From NCBI RefSeq assembly GCF_003944705.1, contig NZ_RWIS01000002.1:124001-188000 (forward strand): a stretch of DNA of 64,000 nt, in the 5' to 3' direction. The notes under the pieces were generated by a model. It was not told the origin of the DNA, did not search any database, and worked only from the letters and a program-made list of their open reading frames with translations. This DNA is from Hymenobacter metallilatus (GTDB lineage Bacteria > Bacteroidota > Bacteroidia > Cytophagales > Hymenobacteraceae). This document shows, piece by piece, positions 32,139 through 34,440 of this stretch. Each line of letters opens with the position of its first letter. The stretch's first letter is position 1. The position numbers were made by a program, and so were the translations under genes.

Positions 32139-32441
32139 TCAGTTGCAGGCCAGCTGAGTCAGCCTAATCTGACCTAGTTTTTCGGGCCACCCTAAAATAA
32201 ATGCCTCATTACGGGTGCCTATTGCTGGGTAATCATCCGGATAAATGATGCGCTGGAATGGCTGTAGCTCAACACGCGGCATCTGTATTACCTCCAGTAA
32301 CGCATCTACATCAGGAAATTCATCAAGCTGCACGAAAACCCCGAACTGCGCCACATGCACAATTGTGCCATGTACACGGGTACCAAAAGGGAATTGTTGC
32401 ACAAGACTATTCCACTGGGCCTGGGTAAATGTGTGCTTCAT
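32139..32441 (-). CDS. Small stand-alone S1-like domain protein
   Basis: A 100-residue protein that is almost entirely one S1/OB-type RNA-binding domain: FGTRVHGTIVHVAQFGVFVQLDE at residues 19-41, then DALLEVIQMP, and AIGTRNEAFILGWPEKLGQIRLTQ at the C terminus. That is the order of strands in S1 repeats (G-x-V-x-G-x-V, GVFV, and a final R-x-x-L-S/T). It is convergent with obg and divergent from grpE. No partner gene is evident. A role in RNA or ribosome binding is inferred from the fold only. Confidence 0.7.
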   Translation of the reverse strand: MKHTFTQAQWNSLVQQFPFGTRVHGTIVHVAQFGVFVQLDEFPDVDALLEVIQMPRVELQPFQRIIYPDDYPAIGTRNEAFILGWPEKLGQIRLTQLACN

Positions 32442-32526
32442 CTAAGTCAAATTACTGAATCACCAACTAGGCTGCCATCAGCCCGTCAACACGGCTGAAC
32501 TAAACCCCACAGCCCAACAGTTTCCG

Positions 32527-32567
32527 TGTCAAACTGACAGCCGCGTGGGCTTTGGCGCGCTCCTTGC
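32527..32567 (+). promoter_or_regulatory. Sigma-54-like promoter with upstream palindrome, before grpE-dnaJ
   Basis: TGGCGCGCTCCTTGC at 32553-32567 fits the sigma-54 consensus TGGCACGnnnnTTGC at every fixed position except one (A to G), with GG and GC exactly 10 bases apart. A perfect palindrome TGTCA-AAC-TGACA lies at 32527-32539, just upstream. The predicted start is near 32579, which leaves a leader of about 50 bases before the grpE ATG. No TAnnTTTG box is present in this gap. Confidence 0.6.
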
Positions 32568-32629
32568 GCCCTTGAGGTGGCCCAATGGCAAACTAAGTGA
32601 AAAACCCTTTCCGACGATATTTTTCGAAA

Positions 32630-33199
32630 ATGGCTGACGAACAACAACTGCCGCAGGACGACAACCTGTCTGCCGACCAGGTGGCCGGCGAAATGACCGA
32701 AGAAACAGCTGGCCCCGGCGAAGCTGCTCCCGTGGAAGGTGAGCCCAAAGCCGAGGCTTCCAGGACCGACAATGAACTAGCCGACCTGAAGGATAAATAC
32801 CTGCGTCTGGCCGCCGAGTTTGAAAACTACAAGCGTCGCACCACTAAGGAACGCGCCGATTTGTTTAAAACCGCCAACCAGGAGCTAATGGTGTCGTTGC
32901 TGCCGGTGCTCGACGACTTTGACCGGGCCCGTCATCATACCAAAGACACGGACGACGCCACTGCCGTGCGCGAGAGTGTGGATATTATCTACAACAAGCT
33001 CAACAAAACCCTCACGCAGAAGGGCCTTACTACCATGGAAACCAAAGGTGGTGCCTTCGACCCCGAGCTGCACGAGGCCATTACCCAGATTCCGGCTCCT
33101 ACGGAAGAGTTGAAAGGCAAGGTTGTGGATGAGGTTGAAAAAGGCTATTACCTCGGCGACAAAGTAATCCGCCACGCCAAGGTGGTGCTGGGCAATTAG
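32630..33199 (+). CDS. grpE: GrpE nucleotide exchange factor
   Basis: A 189-residue DnaK co-chaperone that releases ADP from DnaK. The first 50 residues are acidic and disordered, followed by a long helix (LKDKYLRLAAEFENYKRRTTKE) that forms the dimeric coiled coil, and the C-terminal beta wing ending in GYYLGDKVIRHAKVVL, the GrpE signature. ATG 32630 is preferred over an in-frame GTG 33 bases upstream. It is followed after 98 bases by dnaJ; that gap holds a GACACG/CGTGTC hairpin (33227-33242). The sigma-54-like promoter upstream suggests stress control. Confidence 0.93.
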   Translation: MADEQQLPQDDNLSADQVAGEMTEETAGPGEAAPVEGEPKAEASRTDNELADLKDKYLRLAAEFENYKRRTTKERADLFKTANQELMVSLLPVLDDFDRARHHTKDTDDATAVRESVDIIYNKLNKTLTQKGLTTMETKGGAFDPELHEAITQIPAPTEELKGKVVDEVEKGYYLGDKVIRHAKVVLGN

Positions 33200-33297
33200 T
33201 ATTGAGTAGTGGGTACTGGGTAGTAAGACACGTAAGCGTGTCAGGCTGCGCAGTATTTGTCTCAATACTCACTACATAATACTCTGTACTGAGAACC

Positions 33298-34440
33298 ATG
33301 GCAACGAAGCGAGATTACTACGAGGTGTTGGGCGTAGCCAAAACAGCCTCCGGCGACGAGCTTAAGTCGGCGTACCGGAAGCTGGCTATTAAGTACCACC
33401 CCGACAAAAACCCCGATGACCCATCGGCGGAGGACAAGTTTAAGGAAGCCGCCGAAGCCTACGAGGTGCTCAGCGACCAGGACAAGCGGGCCCGCTACGA
33501 CCGGTTTGGCCACCAGGGCGTGGGCGGCGGCGGACAGGGTCCCAGCATGGAGGACATCTTCAGCCACTTCGGCGACATCTTTGGTGGCGGCGGGGGCGGC
33601 TTTGAGAGCTTCTTCGGGGGCGGTGGCCGCGGGCAGGGTCGGCGGGTGCGGAAGGGCTCTAACCTGCGCATCAAGCTGAAGCTGGATCTGGAAGAGGTTG
33701 CAAACGGAGTTGAGAAGAAGATTAAGGTGAAGCGCTACGTGGCCTGTAACACCTGCGCGGGCACCGGTGCCAAAAACGGCACCGACCTCAAAACCTGTGG
33801 CACCTGCCAAGGGCAGGGCCAGGTGAAGCGCGTAGTACAAACCATGCTTGGCCAGATGGTAAGCGCCAGCACCTGCCCCACCTGCGAAGGCGAAGGCAAG
33901 GTGGTAACCAGCAAGTGCGACACCTGCCATGGCGAAGGCCGGCAGCTACACGAGGAGGTTATTCCCATCAACATTCCGGCCGGTGTGGCCGAGGGTATGC
34001 AGTTGAGTATGAACGGTAAAGGCAACTACCCCGAGCGGGGCGGTATTGCCGGCGACTTGCTCATCCAGATTGAGGAAGAACCCCACGAGCTGCTCAAACG
34101 CGACGGCAACAACATTATGTTCGAGCAGTACATCTCGTTCGTGGATGCTGCGCTGGGAGCCAGCATTGAGGTGCCCACCATTGAGGGTAAAGTGAAAATA
34201 AAGGTGGACCCAGGTACCCAACCGGGCAAAATCCTGCGTCTGCGCGGCAAGGGCATTAAAGACCTCAACGGCTACGGCCGCGGCGACCAGTTGATTCACC
34301 TGAGCGTGTGGACACCCAAAAACGTAACCAATGAGGAGCGGGAGCTGCTGGAAAAGCTCCGCGACGCCCGCAACTTCACGCCCAATCCTGGCAAAAACGA
34401 GAAGGGCTTCTTCGAGAAAGTGAAGGAGTACTTCCAGTAG
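33298..34440 (+). CDS. dnaJ: DnaJ (Hsp40) co-chaperone
   Basis: A 380-residue type I Hsp40. The J domain (residues 4-70) has the HPD triad at 34-36. A Gly/Phe-rich linker follows (about 75-120). The zinc-finger domain has four CxxCxGxG units: [24 protein letters not shown] and CDTCHGEG. The C-terminal substrate domain starts near [16 protein letters not shown]. It delivers unfolded proteins to DnaK and stimulates its ATPase. It forms a stress operon with grpE and ends at a strong terminator. Confidence 0.96.

Follow-up and report, generated by a model that had tools for sequence, protein, structure and literature searches.

A class-wide dyad upstream of the sigma-54-like grpE-dnaJ promoter of Hymenobacter metallilatus, a likely proximal activator site

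The chaperone genes grpE and dnaJ lie within the 64-kb stretch of Hymenobacter metallilatus DNA analysed here, referred to as the window. They are preceded by a short regulatory gap that holds a perfect inverted repeat and, 13 bases downstream of it, an element resembling the -24/-12 promoters of sigma-54 RNA polymerase. The features of the locus, with positions counted within the window, are as follows.

32139..32441, - strand: divergent gene for a 100-aa S1-domain protein (Pfam S1, 1.6e-4), which bounds the regulatory gap
32527..32539, + strand: dyad TGTCA-AAC-TGACA (TGTCAAACTGACA), the proposed activator site; its letters were read directly and it is conserved as TGNCA-N3-TGNCA
32540..32552, + strand: 13-bp spacer, 12 or 13 bp long across the class, weakly conserved in sequence with a mild T bias beside the dyad
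32553..32567, + strand: putative sigma-54 -24/-12 promoter element TGGCGCGCTCCTTGC (TGGC-N7-TTGC)
32579, + strand: predicted transcription start, counted from the GG at -24
32597..33199, + strand: grpE, GTG start, 200 aa (Pfam GrpE, 1.7e-43)
33298..34440, + strand: dnaJ (Pfam DnaJ and DnaJ_C)

A preliminary description of this DNA, made from its letters, had reported the palindrome, the 13-base gap and a sigma-54-like element with one non-consensus base, and both letters and coordinates proved correct. The sigma-54 consensus is TGGCACG-N4-TTGC, from which the grpE element departs by a single G for A; the GG at -24, the GC at -12 and the GG-N10-GC spacing expected of such promoters are all in place. 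Taken alone, TGGC-N7-TTGC turns up in the window about as often as expected by chance (8 occurrences, 6.56 expected). A single exact copy of the palindrome is present where 0.02 would be expected (2 against 0.90 when up to one mismatch is allowed), TGNCA-N3-TGNCA is likewise found a single time, and the composite of dyad and promoter occurs once in the window and in 0 of 100 shuffles. The same description had stated that the gap lacks a TAnnTTTG box, and 32442-32596 is indeed clear on both strands, with no one-mismatch copy on the + strand; raw counts for the window are 17 such boxes on the + strand and 7 on the - strand. If transcription starts according to the -24/-12 convention, the dyad would span about -52 to -40, with its centre near -46. 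The grpE start region (GTGAAAAACCC) is retained in many relatives.

The best named matches to the GrpE of the window come from Hymenobacter. Within the genus, GrpE is present in 119 of 120 genomes, and 118 of the 120 carry the pattern TGNCA-N3-TGNCA-N12-TTGG-N8-TTG, against 0 for a reversed-pattern control; among the matches listed, TGGCAAACTCCTTGC is a frequent form of the promoter element. For wider comparison the class of the window was taken to be Bacteroidia in the sense of GTDB (NCBI places Hymenobacter in Cytophagia). A draw of 158 genomes across the phylum, all with GrpE, provided grpE upstream regions from 40 of 40 class members, a sample drawn evenly by genome that includes the window genome and one congener, and from 30 of the 118 genomes of other classes. 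Regions were scored for the module of dyad plus promoter, with intervening gaps of 4-24 bases permitted, at a threshold of 14 of 17 that was fixed after the first alignments had been seen and at which shuffled sequences were judged as well.

In the class sample the module passes in 38 of the 40 regions, at gap 12 in 27 and gap 13 in 11, the misses being L284 and L281 (where a 7/8 dyad at gap 12 is followed by a divergent promoter). A separate set of 80 named loci, whose members include Cytophagales, Flavobacteriaceae, Sphingobacteriaceae, Saprospiraceae and one uncultured Bacteroidales, yields 77 passes (gap 12 in 54, gap 13 in 22, gap 11 in one); those that fail are L205, L213 and L170, for which only 190 bases of upstream DNA were at hand. 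Hymenobacter loci besides the window pass in 28 of 29 cases (27 at gap 13, one at gap 12), and two loci are common to this set and the named one. Dinucleotide shuffles reach the threshold in 2.1% of cases in the Hymenobacter set, 0.4% in the named set and 0.25% in the sample set. The GrpE query alignment (A1) comprises nine rows, of which eight were obtained via the motif pattern and one is the window itself, a composition that could bias the named loci toward motif-bearing lineages; the 40-genome sample was drawn by genome. Conservation in close relatives, the lack of which the preliminary description had named as a refutation, is observed in both genus and class. Outside the class, 7 of 30 regions pass, one at gap 14 and six at gaps 21-23. 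Sigma-54-like promoters (TGGCAT or TGGTAT ... TTGC) precede grpE in the other-class loci L299, L302, L303 and L309-L313, and all of these except L303 have a GTCA/TGACA-like element further out.

When 114 promoters were aligned, strong conservation was confined to the columns of the dyad and of the -24/-12 element. In the 30 bases upstream of the dyad only the adjoining base is biased, a mild T bias follows the dyad, and a search further upstream of grpE revealed no second conserved site. A conserved upstream dyad tied to sigma-54 promoters is what one expects of the upstream activating site of an enhancer-binding protein (EBP). Because the dyad is the sole strongly conserved upstream element, and because it keeps a near-fixed register with the promoter, a proximal activator site is favoured; that the dyad is such a site, whichever protein binds it, we regard as quite likely.

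TGNCA is itself symmetrical, so that the element can be regarded as a dyad or, alternatively, as a pair of copies with an 8-base offset, and many loci carry TGACA-N3-TGACA. Of 115 grpE promoters, 81 have TGNCA at gap 12 or 13 and 105 have it at gap 20 or 21, and few copies lie elsewhere. A promoter could be called in 18 of 22 groES regions (the others are L323, L325, L334 and L340); TGNCA lies at gap 11-13 in 10 of these (four genera) and at 20-22 in 5 (five genera), in neither range in 3, and at 14-19 in none. The groES of L326 has no site. Together with a gap of 23 before dnaK and the other-class gaps, mostly 21-23, the groES gaps suggest that the site moves in steps of one helical turn.

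The module is not confined to grpE. In the genome of the window the genus pattern has two exact matches, one each upstream of grpE and htpG, and a third match with one mismatch. The htpG dyad stands at gap 13 before TGGAACGGGGTTTGA, and dnaK has a perfect dyad, TGACAATCTGTCA, one turn further out at gap 23 before TGGTACGTGTCTTGT. Sigma-54-like elements also precede lon (TGGCACGGCACTTGC) and groES (TGGCACAGGAAGTGC), with 6/8 dyads at gaps of 11 and 13, respectively. Of the four genes before which the preliminary description had proposed to look for the pair, grpE thus carries it, dnaK and groES carry altered forms and clpB carries none. Among the matches to the strict gap-13 pattern across the phylum, 28 of 39 loci were examined, of which 10 precede htpG, 8 grpE, 3 yidC and 1 a gene for a rhomboid protease, while 6 are other or unclear; grpE and most htpG genes were named from translation, yidC and the rhomboid protease by profile, with NCBIfam on longer frames for yidC. 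The yidC cases, with the same dyad and promoter, come from three genera of one family (L122, L123 and L129) and suggest that membrane insertion joins the regulon in those genera.

The genome has the machinery that such promoters call for. RpoN is encoded (one match, 194.3 bits), as are EBPs, with seven strong PF00158 matches and five weak ones. The EBP that we favour is encoded on contig C9, outside the window, in the gene order miaB, 23S-IVP-like protein, EBP, lptE, an unnamed gene, secG, groES and groEL (groEL by reading). According to Pfam, this miaB-lptE EBP consists of a Sigma54_activat AAA+ domain, a lid and a Fis helix-turn-helix (HTH); nothing precedes the AAA+ domain, that is, there is no N-terminal sensor, and a long variable linker is present. 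Its loop was read as GSFTGA, of the GAFTGA type. Over 29 orthologues the AAA+ domain has a mean majority share of 0.84, the HTH one of 0.78 and the linker one of 0.51, the exception within the linker being a helix at about residues 286-305 with many invariant positions (22 sequences). The AlphaFold model is poor, with a mean pLDDT (predicted local distance difference test) of 59.9 and better values only near residues 1-30, 190-260 and 391-430, and scores against the NCBIfam PspF models (268.1 and 217.5 bits) fall below both cut-offs (443.55 and 529). Another EBP of this genome, a response regulator (L066, G000:C3:61362-61862), lacks an HTH, its sequence stopping behind the AAA+ domain, and carries GSFTSA instead of a GAFTGA-type loop.

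Orthologues of the miaB-lptE EBP occur in 40 of 40 class genomes at E <=5.5e-133, with one match each at that cut-off; in other classes the best of 118 genomes reaches 1.4e-112, and 97 of the 118 match at 1e-80. Within 5 kb downstream of the EBP gene, lptE is found in 26 of 29 cases and groES in 21 of 29 within the class, compared with 9 of 11 and 0 of 11 in other classes. The seven other-class regions that carry the module before grpE all fall among the 13 genomes with a full-length EBP match, and none among the 17 without one; since those seven belong to two families, this association is weak evidence.

Our interpretation is that grpE-dnaJ is transcribed from a sigma-54 promoter and that the dyad is the site of the miaB-lptE EBP, to which we assign a probability of roughly 0.58. 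Sigma-54 polymerase does not open promoters without an EBP (PMC7057263, accessible text). In the proposed scheme, sigma-54 polymerase at 32553-32567, the form of the enzyme that presumably uses the grpE promoter in this species, would transcribe grpE-dnaJ and depend on an activator. The miaB-lptE EBP would dock on the dyad at 32527-32539, near -46, always on the same helical face with respect to polymerase, and from there contact sigma-54 over a short distance, leading to promoter opening. One and the same activator would then drive grpE-dnaJ, htpG, dnaK, groESL and lon as a protein-folding regulon that replaces sigma-32 or HrcA schemes, with heat or misfolding as the presumed activating signal. 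As the EBP has no sensor domain, control in trans is likely, as for PspF and HrpS. Extended to the whole class Bacteroidia, the model holds that the core protein-folding response runs through one dedicated, sensor-less EBP of the miaB-lptE-groESL cluster, acting at short range and in fixed phase and probably gated in trans via the linker helix; this generalization we offer tentatively, at slightly less than even odds. Were it true, that EBP would play in the class the part that RpoH or HrcA plays elsewhere, and a short-range, phase-dependent activator would represent an unusual mode of sigma-54 control, the usual placement being about 100-150 bp away.

Several observations weigh against this interpretation. 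Activator sites typically lie about 100-150 bp upstream (PMC7057263) and in Clostridiales 100-250 bp upstream (PMC6615313), according to the portions of these papers available to us, and the dyad centre, at about -46 by our reckoning, falls short of the usual 100 bp or more; in the accessible text on Desulfovibrio, promoters whose nearest site is no more than 100 nt away make up the largest fraction (PMC4641369). The dyads of groES and lon are degenerate, clpB has no module in this genome, and the -12 dinucleotide is GA at htpG and GT at dnaK rather than GC. Phylum-wide, the strict gap-13 pattern recovers only 32 of 392 genomes (39 matches, against 5 for the reversed pattern), a low yield explained by the many relatives with gap 12. 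Two of the 40 class genomes (G164 and G217) show an EBP match that ends before the HTH. Among the 13 other-class genomes with a full-length match, 6 fail the grpE score, and EBP and module share a phylogeny. The recognition helix of the EBP is presumably of a common Fis type, so that its conservation is weak evidence, and the genome holds six further EBPs with strong activator domains, the distribution having been searched for the miaB-lptE EBP alone.

A further candidate line of evidence was set aside, also to the detriment of our interpretation. TGNCA shows a wider 10-base rhythm before groES, assessed with one row per genus (10 genera, after removal of L322, L332, L358 and four of the five rows of one genus). 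In one genus (L331, L333, L335, L339 and L355), copies at gaps 34, 43 and 51 lie within a terminator-like hairpin followed by a T run, and the distal copy before the groES of L354 is also in a hairpin, then T. Even when the one-genus hairpin set is left out, the rhythm surpasses that of 20,000 random sets; the eight distal positions on their own are too few and partly of hairpin origin. Because the distal copies derive partly from hairpins, the evidence was limited to gaps up to 24, and this recheck slightly lowered our confidence in the EBP assignment and in the single-activator model while slightly raising that in a repressor. Terminator-like hairpins made of TGNCA-like letters just upstream of a groES promoter can thus mimic extra activator sites.

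The preliminary description had left two roles for the palindrome, a repressor site or an unusual proximal activator site; the second fits the comparative data better. A repressor operator that blocks or damps the sigma-54 promoter, with the activator bound elsewhere or acting from solution, would suit the perfect short dyad, a form typical of dimeric repressors, and the HTH-less EBP of this genome illustrates that a conserved site is not required of an activator. We nevertheless consider such an operator quite unlikely. The dyad would lie, at about -52 to -40, upstream of the core promoter elements; a blocking repressor would have no need of the spacing observed, which is kept at 12-13 bases or roughly a turn longer; no upstream column besides the dyad is strongly conserved, and hrcA was not found in this genome.

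Accepting a proximal activator site leaves its occupant to be named, and another EBP, or a non-EBP helper of sigma-54 polymerase, might bind there instead. The number of strong EBPs encoded, seven, leaves room for this, as do the search of one distribution alone and an HTH that looks like a common type. Set against it are the presence of the miaB-lptE EBP, as a single match, in every class genome and its frequent clustering with groESL, and the case of G160, a 2.2-Mb genome with only two first-look EBP candidates that nonetheless has, upstream of grpE, a divergent promoter of the TTGG type preceded at gap 12 by a 7/8 dyad (L281, below threshold). A different occupant is, in our estimation, unlikely. 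That the element is a chance resemblance, with grpE started from an unrecognized promoter of the primary sigma factor, draws on the chance-level frequency of TGGC-N7-TTGC by itself; it is highly improbable in view of the shuffles of the composite, the contrast between the genus genomes and the reversed control, the near-fixed spacing throughout the class and a gap devoid of TAnnTTTG.

Sigma-54 control of grpE is known in the phylum (PMC9723704, PMC12316311; both in part), so that the sigma-54 chaperone scheme which the preliminary description presented as a departure is not new in itself. In Flavobacterium psychrophilum, the accessible text of PMC9723704 reports sigma-54 (SM4) promoters with mapped transcription start sites at groESL, lon, dnaK, grpE-dnaJ and htpG, in one co-expression cluster, and three encoded EBPs. 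These are the same five units that bear the module, intact or altered, in the present genome, and an EBP-lptE transcript (0733-0732) lies near groESL (0729-0728) there, like the EBP-lptE-groESL cluster here; clpB is an SM4 gene in F. psychrophilum and lacks the module in our genome (PMC9723704). The main text of that paper, as distinct from its figures and supplements, mentions neither an upstream dyad nor an EBP assignment in the parts accessible to us. A survey of sigma-54 found chaperone genes including grpE enriched under sigma-54 in Bacteroidota, with grpE sigma-54-dependent in B. thetaiotaomicron and F. psychrophilum, and does not describe the dyad in its accessible portions (PMC12316311).

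Similar activators and sites have been described elsewhere. Like the miaB-lptE EBP, PspF and HrpRS are AAA+ activators without an N-terminal sensor, and PspF and HrpS are controlled in trans by PspA and HrpV (PMC7057263, in part); what sets the present EBP apart is the long linker that joins lid and HTH and includes a helix with numerous invariant positions. The DVU2894 and FlrA sites are inverted repeats with GTCA/TGAC half-sites similar to those of the dyad, set 6 bp apart rather than 3 and located before different genes (PMC4641369, in part). HrcA/CIRCE, HspR/HAIR and sigma-32 also act through a cis element before a chaperone operon, as proposed here, and the contrast that the preliminary description drew with these three schemes holds within the scope examined. 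The hrcA gene was not found in this genome, and the window contains no CIRCE element and no HAIR inverted repeat by their consensus sequences, a search for the hspR gene not having been made. Sigma-32-like CTTGAA / CCCCATNT pairs, counted in the window at one spacing of the consensus, number 8 against 16.4 expected, with none before grpE, and rpoH was not searched for. The NorR site, reportedly GTCA-N3-TGAC, could not be confirmed and is not used here.

No description of the dyad or its activator was found in the literature searched, leaving aside supplements, figures and most subscription papers. How Bacteroidota control their chaperones without the textbook systems has thus been answered only in part: sigma-54 is implicated, and the accessible literature names neither activator nor site. 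A class-wide dyad at near-fixed spacing, together with one strong candidate protein, renders the question directly testable.

Between grpE and dnaJ, the gap at 33200-33297 contains repeat-like DNA that varies among species (window and L002-L030). A repeat search confined to the window's own gap found none; in several relatives the grpE-dnaJ gap holds long inverted repeats of the TCATGCTGAG...AAGCATCTC type.
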